Positions 5,202 to 49,232 of a DNA stretch of 64,000 bases are shown here, piece after piece; the first letter of the stretch is position 1; the number at the start of each line of letters is the position of its first letter. The notes beneath the pieces are model-generated. The model saw only the letters and a list, made by a program, of their open reading frames with translations, searched no databases and had not been told where the DNA came from. Position numbers and translations under genes: made by a program. The DNA comes from Roseivivax marinus (GTDB lineage: Bacteria; Pseudomonadota; Alphaproteobacteria; Rhodobacterales; Rhodobacteraceae): positions 62,001-126,000 of the forward strand of contig NZ_FOAI01000011.1 in assembly GCF_900109705.1 (NCBI RefSeq). Direction: 5' to 3'.

Positions 5202-7667
5202 ATGCGCTTTCTCTTTCGCTGGCTCCTGCGGCTTGCCTCCCTCGCCATCGTGTTGGCCGTGGTGGCGGTGGCGCTGGTCTACTACCTCGCCTCGCGCTCC
5301 CTGCCCGACTACTCGAAGGAGCTGTCGGTCGCCGGCCTGACCGCCGACGTCGAGATCGTGCGGGACAATTCCAACGTGCCGCACATCTTCGCCCGTTCGG
5401 ACCGAGACGCCTATTTCGGGCTGGGTTACGCCCACGCGCAGGACCGGCTGTGGCAGATGATGCTGCTGCGCCGCACCGCGCAGGGCCGTCTGTCCGAGCT
5501 TTTCGGCCGCCGCACGCTCGAAACCGACAGCCTGATCCGCCGCCTCGACCTTTACAACCTCGCCCGCAGCTCGGTCGAGGCGCAGACGCCAGAGACGCTG
5601 GACGCGCTCGAGGCCTACGCCGCCGGGGTCAACGCGCGTATCGAAGAGATCAACAACAGCTCTCTCGGCCGTGGCGCGCCCGAGTTCTTCCTGTTCGACG
5701 CACGGATGCCGCCGTGGCAGCCGGCGGACTCCATCGCCGTCATCAAGGTCATGGCGCTGCAGCTCTCGGGCCACCTGTCCGAGGAGGTCCTGCGCGCCCG
5801 GACGTCTCTTGCGCTCGACGACGCCGACCGCCTGGCGGACGTCCTGCCCGACATTCCCGGCGACGGGGTCGCGGCCCTGCCCGAATATGCCGAACTGGCA
5901 CCGGGCGCGCGGCGTCATGCGGCGCTGGCGCCCGCCTCCGGCGAAGATTTCCTGATGCCCCTGCCCGAGCGCGGGCTGGCTGGCGCCTCGAACGCGTGGG
6001 CCGCGGCCCCCGACCGCTCGGCCTCGGGCGGCACGCTGCTGGCGGGCGATCCGCACCTCGGGCTGACGGCCCCCTCGATCTGGTATCTCGCGCGGCTTCA
6101 GCTGTCCTCGGGCGGCGTCATCGGCGGCACGATCCCCGGCATTCCCGCCGTCATGGTCGGCCGCTCGCAACAGCTCGGATGGGCGATCACGTCGAGCTAT
6201 CTCGATGATCAGGACCTCCACCTCGAGGAGCTGAACCCCGACAACAATAACGAGTACCGCACCCCGGACGGTTGGGCCGAGTTCCGCACCCGCCGCTCGA
6301 TCATCGAGATCAAGGACGCGGCGCCGCTCACCATCACCCAGCGCTGGACCGAAAACGGTCCCGTCCTGCCCGGCTCGGTCTACGATCTCGGAAGCATCAC
6401 GCCGCAGGGCCACGTCATGTCGCTGTCGTGGACCGCGCTGTCGGGCTCGGACACCTCGATGAGCGCCGCGGTGGGCCTGATGAAGGCCGGCGACGTGCGC
6501 GAGGCCATCGACGTCTCGGAGCTCTACGTCGCGCCGTCGCAGAACCTGACCCTGATCGACGACGAGACCGTGGCGATGAAGACCATCGGCACCTTCCCGC
6601 GACGCGCCGCCAACCACCAGAGCCGCGGGCGGCTCCCGAGCCCCGGCTGGATCAACACCAACCGGTGGCAGGGCCGCCTGCCCTACGACCAGAACCCCGA
6701 ATTCGTGGCACCCGAGGGAGGCATCGTCGGCAACACCAACAACAAGATCATCGACCGCGACTTCCCCCGTCACATGAGCTTCGAATGGGGCGACAGCCAA
6801 CGGGTGATGCGCTGGCGCGCGATGATGCAGGGCCGCGAGGTCCATACCCGCGACAGCTTCATCGAGGCACAGCTCGACACCGTATCGCCGGCGGCCCGGA
6901 CGCTCCTGCCGCTGATCGGCAGCGACCTGTGGTATACCGGGGAAGCCGCGCCCGAGGGCACGCCCGAACGCCGCCGACGCCAGGCGCTCGACCTTCTGGC
7001 CGAGTGGAACGGGGAGATGAACGAGCATCTACCCGAACCGCTGATCTATGCCGCGTGGCTGCGCGCCTTGCAGGAGCGGCTGATCCGCGACGACCTCGGG
7101 CCCGTGGCCGACGCCTACGACCACGTGGAGCCGCTCTTCATCGAGCGGGTCTTCCGCGACATCGACGGCGCGGCCGCGTGGTGCGACGTGGTCCGGTCCG
7201 CCGCGGAGGAGACCTGCACGGACATCGCGCGCCTCGCGCTCGACGACGCACTCGTCTGGATCGACGAGACCTACGGCACGGCGCTGGAGTCGCTGCGCTG
7301 GGGCGACGCCCACGAGGCGGTGCACGAACACCAGGTCCTTGGCGAGGTGCCGATCCTCAAGACATTCGTGAACATCCGGCAGTCGACGTCGGGGGGCGAC
7401 TTCACCCTCCAGCGCGGGCGCACCTCGGGCGCACCCGAACACCCGTTCCGCAACGTCCACGCGGCGGGCTATCGTGGCGTCTACGATTTCGCGGACCCGG
7501 ATTCGTCGGTCTTCATCATCGCGACGGGCCAGTCCGGGCACCTTCTGTCCCGACACTATGACGACCTGGGACAGCTGTGGCGGCGGGGCGAATACATCCC
7601 GATGTCGCTCGACCCCGAACTGGCCCGCGCCGCGGCCGTGGGCGTCACCCGCCTGCGCGCCGAGTGA
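5202..7667 (+). CDS. Penicillin acylase (penicillin amidase) family N-terminal nucleophile hydrolase
   Basis: The protein has 821 residues. Residues 6-30 form a hydrophobic anchor or signal segment, so the enzyme is exported or membrane-tethered. The alpha part carries NVPHIFARSDRDAYFGLGYAHAQDRLWQM, typical of the family. GLAGASNAW (around residue 263) holds the expected autocatalytic cleavage site, with Ser263 becoming the N-terminal nucleophile of the beta subunit. GNTNNKI and the C-terminal GQSGH...DLGQLWRRG motif are also family marks. Members cleave amide bonds of beta-lactam side chains, N-acyl-homoserine lactones or N-acyl amino acids; acylase activity on a natural amide is likely, but the substrate is unknown. 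Confidence 0.9.
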   Translation: MRFLFRWLLRLASLAIVLAVVAVALVYYLASRSLPDYSKELSVAGLTADVEIVRDNSNVPHIFARSDRDAYFGLGYAHAQDRLWQMMLLRRTAQGRLSELFGRRTLETDSLIRRLDLYNLARSSVEAQTPETLDALEAYAAGVNARIEEINNSSLGRGAPEFFLFDARMPPWQPADSIAVIKVMALQLSGHLSEEVLRARTSLALDDADRLADVLPDIPGDGVAALPEYAELAPGARRHAALAPASGEDFLMPLPERGLAGASNAWAAAPDRSASGGTLLAGDPHLGLTAPSIWYLARLQLSSGGVIGGTIPGIPAVMVGRSQQLGWAITSSYLDDQDLHLEELNPDNNNEYRTPDGWAEFRTRRSIIEIKDAAPLTITQRWTENGPVLPGSVYDLGSITPQGHVMSLSWTALSGSDTSMSAAVGLMKAGDVREAIDVSELYVAPSQNLTLIDDETVAMKTIGTFPRRAANHQSRGRLPSPGWINTNRWQGRLPYDQNPEFVAPEGGIVGNTNNKIIDRDFPRHMSFEWGDSQRVMRWRAMMQGREVHTRDSFIEAQLDTVSPAARTLLPLIGSDLWYTGEAAPEGTPERRRRQALDLLAEWNGEMNEHLPEPLIYAAWLRALQERLIRDDLGPVADAYDHVEPLFIERVFRDIDGAAAWCDVVRSAAEETCTDIARLALDDALVWIDETYGTALESLRWGDAHEAVHEHQVLGEVPILKTFVNIRQSTSGGDFTLQRGRTSGAPEHPFRNVHAAGYRGVYDFADPDSSVFIIATGQSGHLLSRHYDDLGQLWRRGEYIPMSLDPELARAAAVGVTRLRAE

Positions 7668-8301
7668 CCTGCGGCGGGCGCTCGCCTGCCGCCTCGTCCA
7701 GCACGGCCCAGTCCGCGCCCCTGCGGTCGTGCGCGTTCCCCTTCCAGCCGGCTCGCAGCACGCGATGGTCTCTGCCGTGGTGTGAAGTGGACCTAGGGCG
7801 CGCTTCTCCGCCGCTCGACGCCGCGCCTCTCTTTCCGGCGCGACGGGAACGTGCCGGCGCCGTCTCGTGCACCGCAGGCGCCCGCTTGGGAGGTGAGCAG
7901 CGGCGCCCTCCCCCTTTGTGACGTCGCAATTCCCGGCCCCTAACCCTTCAGCGGCGTGATTGCGGCGAATTCGGGGGTGGCGCCAGGACAATTACGCCCA
8001 CCCCCTTCCGGTAAACTTGAGGGCGAACTTCGGCGCGCCAGTTTCGTTATTAAATCGTTATTTCAGAATCGCATTTCGTTATTCCTTCGTGAATTACCAG
8101 GTCAACGGATTCACAAACAAGTATGACGCCTCGGGCAATACGAACCGATTCTTCCATCAATTATCGCCCAATATATCATATTCAAAATAAAATATTTCAA
8201 ATCGCATTTGTTCACATTTCCTTATAAGCATTTGTTAATGTTGACTTTTAAGAAAGGCATTCGAACCATTTCCTCACGCAACCCTATTGAGGAAAATCGT
8301 G
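7668..8301. other. Intergenic region with an AT-rich block upstream of the repeat-protein gene
   Basis: The first about 370 bases are GC-rich without a convincing coding frame; an imperfect 10-bp hairpin follows the acylase stop near 7671-7692. From about 8035 to 8301 the sequence becomes strongly AT-rich, with runs such as AATATATCATATTCAAAATAA, in sharp contrast to the rest of the window. A TTGACT (8240-8245) could act as a -35 element. The block probably serves as promoter and leader for the gene starting at 8302 and may mark foreign DNA. Confidence 0.5.
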
Positions 8302-8674
8302 ATGACCATTCAATTCCAAAACCTGCCTTCCGTGAATCAATTCACTCCGACCCTCCGCACTTCGGAGGGCTCCACCACCCAGACCGGTGGGGGGGCAGAT
8401 CGCGCCCAAGCTCCACGCACGTTCCAGCACCCAAACCGGCGGCGGGCAGAACGCGCCCAAGCTTCAGTCCCGCTCCGCCACCCAGACCGGCGGCGGTCAG
8501 CTCTCGCCGAAGCTCCAATCCCGCTCCACGACCCAGACCGGAGGCGGCCAGATCGCGCCAAAGCTCCAGTCCCGCTCCACCACCCAGACCGGTTGGGGGC
8601 AGATCGCCCCGAAGCTCCAGTCCCGATCGACCACCGATATAGGCGGCGGGCAGATCGCGCCCAAGCTGCGCTGA
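8302..8674 (+). CDS. Six-repeat small protein, reading frame broken at a run of seven G
   Basis: The ATG at 8302 has GAGG nine bases upstream. The first 23 residues (MTIQFQNLPSVNQFTPTLRT, then SEG) are followed by tandem 17-residue units, consensus STTQTGGGQIAPKLQSR. At 8389-8395 there are seven G. As written, the frame shifts there into a different frame, while all later repeats lie in the frame opened by a GTG at 8387. Removing one G joins everything into a 123-residue protein of six clean units. So this is a phase-variable or programmed-slippage gene, a recent frameshift, or a sequencing error. No signal peptide and no Cys are visible. QTGGGQIAPKLQ recalls the QxGxxNxAxxxQ pattern of curlin repeats, but the Pro and the shorter unit argue against a simple curlin. 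Function unknown. Confidence 0.7.
8371..8671 (+). repeat. Tandem array of six 51-base coding repeats
   Basis: Each unit encodes 17 residues with the invariant core G-x-G-Q-x-[AS]-P-K-L. Units begin near 8371, 8423, 8474, 8525, 8576 and 8627; the first is 52 bases because of the extra G and the last ends early at KLR. Third codon positions vary between units (for example cag/caa and ccg/cca/ccc), which suggests selection on the peptide rather than very recent duplication. Confidence 0.85.
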
Positions 8675-9826
8675 TCACCGCCTGCGCGGCTCGGGGAGGC
8701 CCCGGGCCGCGTATATGCTCCAGATCGCGGGCAGGAAGAACGTCGCGAGCAGCGCGAGGGCAAAGAACTCCTCTCCCCGCGTGCCGACCATGTAGGCCGT
8801 GACGACCTGCGACAGGGCGACCCCCATCTGCACCAGCGCGGTCAGCCATTGCGAGACGTGGCGCGCCGACAGCGAGACCTCTCCGAGAAAGCGCGCACAG
8901 GTCATGTTCACCGCGATCTCGAACAGGCACAGGGCCACCACCGCGACCGCGAGCGTACCCACCTGGAACAGCTCCACTGTGGCACAGGCCAGAAGCGGCG
9001 CCGCCACGAAGAAGGCACGCCGCGGCACCTGTGCCGGAATCCGATGCAAGCCGAAGATGGTCACCGCCGCTGCCAACCGCGCGGCGCCGAGGATCGCGAC
9101 AATCGACATGGCCGGGAAAGCATCCTCGGCCAGCACCGGCAGGTAGTTCAGGAAGGCGATGACGCCGCCGAAGAACGGCACGATCCACAGCGCGAGCCGT
9201 CCCACGCCTGCCGCGTCGCGCCAGAGTTCGCGCAGGCGGGGACGTGCCGTCGCCACGCGGATTGGCCTCACGACGGCCGGGCCGCTCAGCATCAATCCGA
9301 CCGCCACGAGGACCACGCCGCCTTGCAGGACCTGAGTGAACAGCATGGCAGAGGGCAACGAGATCCCGGGTCGGGCCAGCGTCGTCATCAGCACGAGAGC
9401 CGAAAGCGCCATCGACAGCGAAAGTCGCACCGAGAACGCCGCCACAGGGTTGGGCCCCCGTGCAGCGACCAGCATTCCCATGTACTGCAACGCGCCGCTG
9501 GCGGCCCCGAGGCCGAGCCAAACGGCCAGCCGCAGGCCCGTGACAGGTCCGGCAGACACCAGCAGCAGCACCTGCGCGAGCAGGGCCACGGCAAGAATCT
9601 CGCGCAGGCGCAGGCCGCCCGGCCGCAGCACCGGCGCGCCGAAGGACGCGATCACCTGTCCGAGGAACAGCATCCCCGCCAGCCAGCCCGCGCCCAGAAG
9701 CGACGCGCCGCCCTGCCCGTAAGCGATGGTGAGATAGAGCGGCAGGCTTTGGGGGATCAGGGAGCCCGCCGCGCTGAGCAGACACGCCCCGAAGACCGGA
9801 CGCGAGAGGACCTCAACTCGCGACAT
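8675..9826 (-). CDS. Major facilitator superfamily (MFS) transporter
   Basis: The protein has 383 residues and about twelve hydrophobic segments, beginning at VFGACLLSAAGSLIPQSLPLYL and ending with the helix ALALLATFFLPAIWSIYAA. It has no recognised substrate signature. The ATG at 9826 lies 14 bases inside the end of the DUF6065 gene, so the two are likely co-translated. Its TGA (8675-8677) abuts the TGA of the repeat gene on the other strand, the two forming a shared TGATCA. Convergence with a small repeat peptide makes export of a peptide or small product thinkable, but that is only inference. Confidence 0.85.
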   Translation of the reverse strand: MSRVEVLSRPVFGACLLSAAGSLIPQSLPLYLTIAYGQGGASLLGAGWLAGMLFLGQVIASFGAPVLRPGGLRLREILAVALLAQVLLLVSAGPVTGLRLAVWLGLGAASGALQYMGMLVAARGPNPVAAFSVRLSLSMALSALVLMTTLARPGISLPSAMLFTQVLQGGVVLVAVGLMLSGPAVVRPIRVATARPRLRELWRDAAGVGRLALWIVPFFGGVIAFLNYLPVLAEDAFPAMSIVAILGAARLAAAVTIFGLHRIPAQVPRRAFFVAAPLLACATVELFQVGTLAVAVVALCLFEIAVNMTCARFLGEVSLSARHVSQWLTALVQMGVALSQVVTAYMVGTRGEEFFALALLATFFLPAIWSIYAARGLPEPRRR

Positions 9827-10580
9827 CTTCCCTGCCCGGCGCCCGCGCCTTCCGCGCACGACGCACCTGCGCTCCGTAGGTGCCGGGGCCGGTTCGAGGC
9901 TCCGACAGGCCCGGCATCCGCGTCGTGCCGCGCAGGGCTTGCCAGTCGAAATCCTCCGCCTCGAGATCGCGGAGGTCCAGCCTTTGCGCCGCCGGCCCGG
10001 CATAGGCCTCGCGCGGGATCGGCTGGACCTGGAACAGCGGCACGTCGCGCGGGATCAGGATCTCGGTGTCCGTCTTGACCAGCCGCAGGTTCACGAAGAG
10101 CGGCATGGGCGCGAACGTGTCCGTCTCGACGATGGCCTCGTAGGCGAACCACGCGGCCGAGGCGTGGATGTTCGGCAGCGGCCGGATGTTGAGCGCCCAG
10201 CCCGGCGCGGTCTGCACGAAAAGCCCGCTCCAGACCTGGATCACCGACGGCTCGAAGAGAGATGTCAGCGCCGAGGGCGCACGGTCGCGAAATTCCGGGG
10301 GACAGATGGAATTCCAGCGCTCGGCGATTTCAGGCGGCAGGGGTTCGCTCTGCAATTGCCTCCACCGTCCTTCGTCGGCGACCTGTGCCGTATATCCGTC
10401 GAACATCACGTGGACGTCCATCAGCGGAAACACGTACCACCCGTAGGCACAGGCGGTGCGCATGGCCTCGCAATACTGAAACGCGCCGAGCGGAATATGA
10501 CCCAGCCCACCCTTGTCTCCGGCCATCGGCTTGAGGAGGTCGGGGGCGACGCTGAAAAACCGAATGAGGGAGTCGTCCAA
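9813..10580 (-). CDS. DUF6065-like protein of unknown function
   Basis: The protein has 255 residues. It lacks a signal peptide and membrane segments. The core contains CEAMRTACAYGWYVFPLMDV near residues 38-57, IQVWSGLFVQTAPGW in the middle, and FVNLRLVKTDTEILIPRDVP followed by LFQVQPIPR. I recognise this pattern as DUF6065, a family without assigned activity. The C-terminus is basic and probably disordered. The start is a TTG at 10580, chosen because a perfect GGAGG sits six bases upstream. It overlaps the MFS gene by 14 bases, so the pair forms a coupled operon. Confidence 0.7.
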   Translation of the reverse strand: MDDSLIRFFSVAPDLLKPMAGDKGGLGHIPLGAFQYCEAMRTACAYGWYVFPLMDVHVMFDGYTAQVADEGRWRQLQSEPLPPEIAERWNSICPPEFRDRAPSALTSLFEPSVIQVWSGLFVQTAPGWALNIRPLPNIHASAAWFAYEAIVETDTFAPMPLFVNLRLVKTDTEILIPRDVPLFQVQPIPREAYAGPAAQRLDLRDLEAEDFDWQALRGTTRMPGLSEPRTGPGTYGAQVRRARKARAPGREDVAS

Positions 10581-49009: not shown

Positions 49010-49232
49010 ATGCGGCTTATCCATCAAGCGGCCCTCGACACCGCGGCACGGGCGCGCGACGCTGCCGCTCTTGCCATCAAGACGGCCACCGAGGCGCGGG
49101 ACGCGGCCGGCAAGGCCATCACCGAGGCCGAGACGGCCTTCGCCGAGGCGCGGCGCCAGACCCTGGAAAGCGGCCTGACCCAGCTTCCGGAGAGCCCGGC
49201 CGGCGCCAAGGAGGCGCTGGCCAATCTCCAAG
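49010..49232 (+). pseudogene. Ala-rich coiled-coil protein, truncated by the IS3 fragment
   Basis: The ATG at 49010 opens MRLIHQAALDTAARARDAAA, followed by AITEAETAFAEARRQTLESG and SPAGAKEALANLQG, a heptad-like helical protein with good coding bias. At 49231-49233 the sequence changes abruptly into an IS3-family transposase in another frame, so the C-terminus is lost. Confidence 0.6.

Follow-up and report, generated by a model that had tools for sequence, protein, structure and literature searches.

The window analysed here, a 64,000-nucleotide stretch of Roseivivax marinus DNA, carries a short gene for a tandem-repeat peptide on the forward strand and, on the reverse strand, genes for a predicted MFS-type transporter and a DUF6065 protein. 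The features of the locus are as follows.

8000..8300, no strand: A+T-rich upstream region; in the composition profile, G+C falls to 0.44 over 8000-8399 from about 0.7 in both flanks
8289..8293, forward strand: Shine-Dalgarno-like GAGGA, read from the sequence, 8 nt ahead of the ATG at 8302
8302..8388, forward strand: 5′ part of the peptide gene, read from ATG 8302, encoding the 23-residue leader-like MTIQFQNLPSVNQFTPTLRTSEG and the start of unit 1
8371..8422, forward strand: unit 1, 52 bases, split over two frames (units 2-5 are of 51 bases)
8389..8395, forward strand: run of seven G (G7), inside unit 1, the junction of the two frames
8423..8674, forward strand: units 2-6 and the stop codon, in the repeat frame, with unit starts at 8423, 8474, 8525, 8576 and 8627
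8675-9826, reverse strand: MFS-type transporter, 383 aa from the ATG at 9826, predicted from an AlphaFold model and VIA structure matches
9813-10580, reverse strand: DUF6065 protein (PF19541) of the 'YCE' subtype, 255 aa; Pfam E 6.8e-9, 36 bits against a cut-off of 26.6

Tandem Repeats Finder detected a single strong array, located at 8369-8667, with a period of 51 bp, 5.8 copies, 80% matches and a score of 372; the sole other row in the 64 kb is at 49105-49154 (21 bp, 2.3 copies, score 56). The initial annotation had described six 17-residue units, with the 23-residue N-terminus in another frame and the two frames joining at the G7 run, and our analysis bears this out in every part. The repeat frame runs from 8387 to the TGA at 8672-8674. 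Units 2-6 contain a core around T-G-G-G-Q-I-A-P-K-L (window core TQTGGGQIAPKL), and unit 6 is shortened, reading S-T-T-D-I-G-G-G-Q-I-A-P-K-L-R before the stop. Between units one period apart, the substitutions at codon positions 1, 2 and 3 number 10, 5 and 30 (chi-square p = 8.6e-6, from lagged comparisons that are not fully independent); because third positions carry most of the differences, the units have been under selection at the protein level. A DNA search of the 39 contigs (4.01 Mb) of the genome to which the window belongs returned no second copy of the array. The A+T-rich region upstream is probably a promoter region or a recent arrival; a sigma-70 consensus scan identified no promoter ahead of the peptide gene. 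Further upstream, at 5202-7667, lies a gene for an enzyme of the Penicillin-amidase family (PF01804, E 3.7e-203) with weak PvdQ similarity, for whose membership in the cassette there is no evidence.

Pfam and NCBIfam scans of the repeat ORF gave no model above cut-off. With E up to 1, the sole Pfam row was the sub-threshold GH3_N_vert (E 0.02, 15.3 bits against a cut-off of 34.1), in keeping with the earlier remark that the unit resembles neither curlin nor RTX repeats; for the small amyloid-like protein suggested at the same time, nothing in our analysis speaks.

The stop codon of the MFS gene abuts that of the peptide gene (8674/8675), the two genes being convergent and arranged tail to tail, and the MFS gene shares the 14 nt at its start with the end of the DUF6065 gene. 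The peptide gene is thus beside a DUF6065 gene of the close subtype, with the MFS gene between them, and this order and orientation match those in Sagittula salina (L034/L072). The transporter has no Pfam match, being below detection by MFS_1; its AlphaFold model (pLDDT 77, pTM 0.80) matched solved structures with VIA Z up to 32.8 (9w1r, rmsd 3.6, 362 aligned), and the product is therefore predicted to be an MFS transporter. Within the genus, it is present in one of nine genomes, its own, so the locus looks accessory.

Direct searches with the repeat protein failed to reach any relatives. Only the own gene was found in 101 genomes, the next best hit (E 0.0035) being at chance level; of 107 pattern matches in genome_contigs, none passed confirmation, and plasmids and phages gave nothing beyond chance. 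The peptide family was reached only through the neighbouring DUF6065. A protein search of 295 genomes of the family with DUF6065 found it in seven others, and in six of these (L034-L039) a tandem-repeat gene adjoins it, whose units measure 16, 19, 19, 19, 22 and 17 residues and fall into four different sequences; the seventh (L040) has a distant DUF6065 and no tandem-repeat gene. When 394 genomes of the family were searched with a profile, a close DUF6065 was present in seven besides the window's own (L034-L039 and L083), all seven with an adjoining array.

A profile built from seven DUF6065 proteins found 32 loci in named records; six are L034-L039, and the near relatives L053-L056 are counted several times. 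They come from Rhodobacteraceae, Reyranella, Vineibacter, Rhizobium, Bradyrhizobium, an Acetobacteraceae bin, Variovorax and Hydrogenophaga, among others. When their surroundings were read, a short peptide gene was found near DUF6065 in 30 of the 32, and none in L058 and L060. Twenty-four are multi-unit, 23 with a clear tandem array (L050 and L075 at a contig end) and L071 with three diverged units, and six are single-unit (L067, L073, L074, L076, L078 and L079); L071 and the single-unit loci were assigned by eye, and of these seven only L067 appeared among the 45 best rows of the motif HMM (E 0.066). An automatic tandem-repeat test, blind to the motif, was positive within 1.5 kb of DUF6065 at 17 of 32 loci, compared to 2 of 31 at 3-4.5 kb (Fisher p = 7e-5); among the controls, 1 of 18 dUTPase loci and 1 of 28 other loci were positive.

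Further loci were collected from 385 genomes of the class, 398 genomes of the phylum and the Rhizobium plasmid locus L118. All five additional close DUF6065 loci have the peptide, four of them new (L120 is the L054 locus again), whereas none of the 20 distant DUF6065 loci does, in surroundings that reach about 1.5 kb beyond the matched part (about 4 kb in L119). The link to the peptide is thus a property of one DUF6065 subtype. The distant loci (L040, L119 and L124-L141) served as controls and were excluded from the family counts; the distant DUF6065 genes of many Alphaproteobacteria (L124-L141) may have another role. In one of the distant loci, on a Sinorhizobium medicae plasmid (L119:3441-4654), DUF6065 overlaps a hypothetical gene of 169 residues, with no repeat peptide.

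DUF6065 was also present at 10 loci of the viral_contigs (IMG/VR) collection, four of which begin within 22 bases of the gene. The six with upstream sequence (L088, L090, L091, L093, L095 and L096) all contain, by eye, a short peptide with a [RK]-I-R-[LM]-G-[GA]-like core, and the HMM scores of the five outside the training set are weak (E 0.77 to 13). The DUF6065 of L088 had no match in 50,697 phage records. The peptide family beside DUF6065 is widespread and apparently undescribed; a literature search found no publication naming DUF6065, PF19541 or the core strings tried.

The shared core approximates V-x-[LMIF]-G-x-G-x-x-[ASLP]-P-x-[VILF], with examples such as VHIANKSPAF, VKLGMMAPAF, VRLGNMSPAF and VSVGGGIAPIV, and, from further relatives, VRMGSGELPPRV, RQFGGGYIAPSV and VTFGSGGYISPTV. 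The fit is loose, the proline being missing in L061 and L070, and no Cys, Ser or Thr of the core is invariant. It is present once or in 2 to 12 copies, which are joined by more variable linkers. With an HMM from 15 other loci, built on a core alignment made by hand and with the window excluded, the window ORF ranked first among the window's ORFs of at least 25 aa (E 1.1e-6, the next being at E 3.9); the window gene thus belongs to the family. In L121-L123, which belong to a single genus from a different family of the class, V-R-L-G-N-M-S-P-A-F recurs as the core with hardly any change, whereas the linkers differ; the core is therefore taken to be the working part of the unit.

The reading frame was checked in 23 arrays of 2 to 12 units, a set that leaves out L050, L071 and L075 (contig ends, diverged units) and predates L118 and L121-L123. 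All 23 are open; at an in-frame start, 22 of them carry a word of 4-6 bases that resembles a Shine-Dalgarno site, a count for which no chance level was computed. In addition to the window, an excess of third-position changes was found in 10 of 10 other arrays, with totals of 102, 72 and 360 by codon position. The leaders are short, variable and unrelated, and are nearly absent in L053 and L055. Core similarity follows DUF6065 identity, with a Mantel rho of 0.63 for 23 loci and 0.53 for 18 non-redundant loci (0 of 5000 permutations each, with the hand-made core alignment); core and DUF6065 co-diverge, although such a correlation would also arise simply from linked genes being inherited as one cassette. 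The weak NCBIfam rows of the repeat peptides, all but one under the curated cut-offs, were rejected as inflation of scores by repeats; YlcI/YnfO_N on L061 (63.7 bits against a cut-off of 30) was rejected likewise, no stretch of the peptide passing alone.

In total, 38 neighbourhoods were compared: the 32 named loci, L083, four viral contigs and the window. The MFS and regulator counts given here include the near relatives L053-L056 and are hence not independent. DUF6065 has an MFS gene immediately after it in 11 of the 38, and in one (L068) the MFS gene lies ahead of the peptide; these MFS genes form two similarity clusters, of 7 and 5 members. Among five members scanned, those of L048, L064 and L070 pass Pfam MFS_1, and those of L072 and the window fail. 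A regulator-like BLAST cluster of BTAD/TPR type occurs within 6 kb in 13 of the 38 neighbourhoods; the window has no member of it within 6 kb. Of seven members scanned, L053, L057 and L067 score above the Pfam BTAD cut-off and L088 slightly below it, and L064, L066 and L078 gave TPR matches alone (under the cut-off in L078, and together with a cyclase domain in L066). BTAD/TPR-type proteins are common beside secondary-metabolite genes. No YcaO, radical SAM, ATP-grasp or LanM protein, the classical RiPP maturases, was noticed when the recurring neighbour clusters were inspected.

On the Rhizobium plasmid pWSM4643_1, where the record labels the homologue 'DUF6065 family protein', the peptide and DUF6065 are followed by two abutting hypothetical genes that together look MFS-like by eye; this MFS-like gene (L118:5840-6858), annotated as two hypothetical proteins, may be frameshifted. 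In Roseibium denhamense (L079:6012-6769), DUF6065 is split in two overlapping reading frames, whereas its near twin L076 is whole; because of its broken frame, L079 was excluded from the DUF6065 alignment A3. Upstream of the single-unit peptide, these two loci share a conserved ORF of 45 aa (L076:5379-5516 and L079:5396-5533) with one hydrophobic segment and a C-terminal C-P-T-G-W-N-C. In the four viral contigs L088, L090, L091 and L093, a gene cluster is found a few kb downstream of DUF6065, and its member in L088 is a terminase (Pfam E 1.3e-16); the pair of peptide and DUF6065 may thus be carried on phages or prophages there. L088 is also the contig with the BTAD-like regulator just under the cut-off.

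The model of the window DUF6065, computed with 32 sequences, reached pLDDT 89 and pTM 0.83, and the solved structures that match it best are those of dUTPases (Foldseek E 4.1e-6 for 3ecy_A). With VIA, Z was 12.9 for 3lqw (rmsd 4.3, 126 aligned) and 12.3 for 2py4 (rmsd 2.5, 116 aligned); over the best 50 rows, Z was 11.7-12.9 and rmsd 2.1-5.9 over 113-139 residues. A dUTPase-like fold is therefore predicted for DUF6065, and PF19541 matches all eight proteins of alignment A1, including that of the window. Profile comparison of DUF6065 with dUTPases was not significant (hhalign probability 0.1%, E 0.42), and the dUTPase motifs R-S-G-L-A, P-G-T-I-D-x-D-Y and G-G-x-G-S-T-G, taken from an alignment of 18 dUTPases (A4), are absent from the conserved columns of DUF6065 (A3). 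The invariant residues of its 32 sequences are G27, Y36, C37, E38, R41, A43, G47, G119, N164 and P181 in window numbering. We rejected DUF6065 as a dUTPase enzyme, as the fold alone agrees and the motifs and the profile do not; the fold, as predicted by the model, is borrowed from dUTPases.

A start with its Shine-Dalgarno site is present in the window, and the frame entered from it changes at the G7 run. Since unit 1 itself is split between the frames, the peptide gene was formerly continuous and the break came later. Not one of the 23 relatives' arrays checked has a broken frame, so the break looks private to this assembly, and the DUF6065 and MFS genes beside it are both open. It points to an error in sequencing, a recently arisen null or a switch that can revert, and not to an old pseudogene. 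An error of sequencing or assembly, the gene being intact, is a strong candidate, if somewhat short of probable: the open arrays of all 23 relatives, the open partner genes and a third-position excess with no sign of decay all agree with it, but the window also holds a G8 and a C7 that were read in open frames, so homopolymers are not systematically wrong here. The latter evidence is mild, as the two runs are near the 3′ and the 5′ end, respectively, of what we take, from our own reading of the sequences, to be gyrA-like and COX15/CtaA-like genes. Quite as credible is a recent loss-of-function mutation in a strain that is losing the system. The window's copy is the only broken one among those checked, and the transporter is missing from the genus's eight other genomes, which can therefore do without the cassette; on the other hand, the DUF6065 and MFS genes are still open, and an error or a switch would look identical.

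The initial annotation had regarded the G7 run as an on/off switch and had suggested comparing tract length among relatives. That the break is located exactly within a G run fits a contingency locus in which slippage toggles the gene, and the open partners and the third-position excess imply that any off state would be young. However, seven is short for a slippery tract, and a run of seven or more is present in none of the 23 relatives' arrays, two of which have an in-frame G6; the other long runs of the window sit in open frames, and G or C runs of seven or more are rarer in it than expected (3 seen against 11.7 under a Markov model). The tract is thus neither conserved in relatives nor over-represented, phase variation finds no support, and we consider a switch improbable, the lowest rated of error, fresh mutation and switch. 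A literature search found no publication on phase variation via homopolymers in Rhodobacteraceae. Slimmer still are the prospects of an explanation in which the frames are joined by frameshifting or slippage during translation or transcription, or the array starts at GTG 8387. GGAGGG (8364-8369) does precede the tract, the GTG at its edge opens a 95-aa frame with units 2-6 whole, and certain relatives are nearly leaderless; but the 17 nt between GGAGGG and the GTG are too wide a spacing for efficient initiation, the local RNA folds no differently from expectation (z -0.47), and the 23 relatives checked all manage without a step of this kind. A GC-rich hairpin, CCCUCCG-CACUU-CGGAGGG, is located at 8351-8369, about 20 nt ahead of the G7 run, with no U run following it.

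As to function, we favour, with moderate confidence, a reading of the three-gene cassette of tandem-core peptide, DUF6065 and MFS genes in which the units would be the cores of a multi-core, RiPP-like precursor, DUF6065 its partner and the MFS protein its exporter. The precursor would be cleaved in the linkers between the cores, each core would be bound or modified by DUF6065, and export of the product would fall to the MFS protein; these steps, and a use for the product, are inferred. In some other genomes, the BTAD/TPR-type proteins may control the system. The window gene encodes a putative precursor with conserved cores, as in RiPP systems, and the protein that recurs beside it, DUF6065, is a candidate for the modification enzyme; in the window, it is accordingly a candidate partner or maturase of the peptide. 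A multi-core peptide precursor had been among the first guesses from the sequence. Comparative genomics has lent it support, in the form of a family of often tandem motif peptides beside DUF6065, which is not proof.

The main rival is that the peptides are multivalent ligands or regulators of DUF6065, the cores docking on the dUTPase-like protein and the number of repeats tuning avidity. dUTPases can be held by protein partners such as Stl, and Stl complexes are among the fold matches; the co-divergence of core and DUF6065 also speaks for it, as does a core that persists although the number of units ranges from 1 to 12. This account is nevertheless unlikely, in our judgement: the dUTPase motifs are not kept, and an MFS transporter is present in 12 of the 38 neighbourhoods and, in the window, overlaps DUF6065, a recurrence and an overlap that suggest export. 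It is very improbable that the gene encodes a structural repeat protein, such as a small amyloid, an RTX-like protein or an adhesin fragment, unrelated to DUF6065. Its product is repetitive and rich in Gly, Thr and Gln, but no Pfam or NCBIfam model is over cut-off, and the tie to DUF6065 is specific, so that synteny disfavours it.

Beyond the cassette in the window, we raise tentatively a wider proposal, namely a new class of ribosomal peptide natural product, found mainly in Alpha- and Betaproteobacteria, in which concatenated V-x-[LMIF]-G-x-G-x-x-x-P cores would be modified by a DUF6065 of dUTPase fold and exported by the MFS protein where present, in places beside phage packaging genes. If DUF6065 is the maturase, the class would be new; a dUTPase fold is not known from any RiPP pathway. 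A literature search found no publication on a multi-core RiPP in alphaproteobacteria, and searches on RiPPs, dUTPases and BTAD proteins found none that matched by title or abstract opening. Through the peptide family, a domain of unknown function gains a partner and hence a testable function. Should it modify the cores, this would be a case of peptide chemistry that has taken over a dUTPase-like fold, and hypothetical small genes, for example that of WP_170279615.1 on the Rhizobium plasmid, become predicted precursors that lend themselves to heterologous expression. The varying unit number provides a natural series for the study of multi-core processing.

Compared to trimeric dUTPases, DUF6065 shares the predicted fold, but it is about 100 residues longer and does not conserve their invariant motifs; PF19541 itself comprises two kinds, the close 'YCE' subtype with the peptide and the distant kind without it. 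The window transporter model is similar to MFS drug and metabolite transporters with the G6PT, OxlT, SotB and NorA folds (VIA Z 27-33), whereas its sequence is too diverged for Pfam MFS_1. Different from known multi-core RiPPs, the family has no known maturase, its leaders are short or missing, unlike those of most known RiPPs, and no Pfam or NCBIfam precursor family fits it. We take dikaritins, epichloecyclins, multi-core graspetides and cyanobactins to be the closest layouts. These systems share with the family a short gene, a repeated conserved core with variable linkers, an adjoining protein that is not a housekeeping one, at times a transporter, and a unit number that changes readily. In its layout, the peptide gene of the window resembles multi-core RiPP genes.
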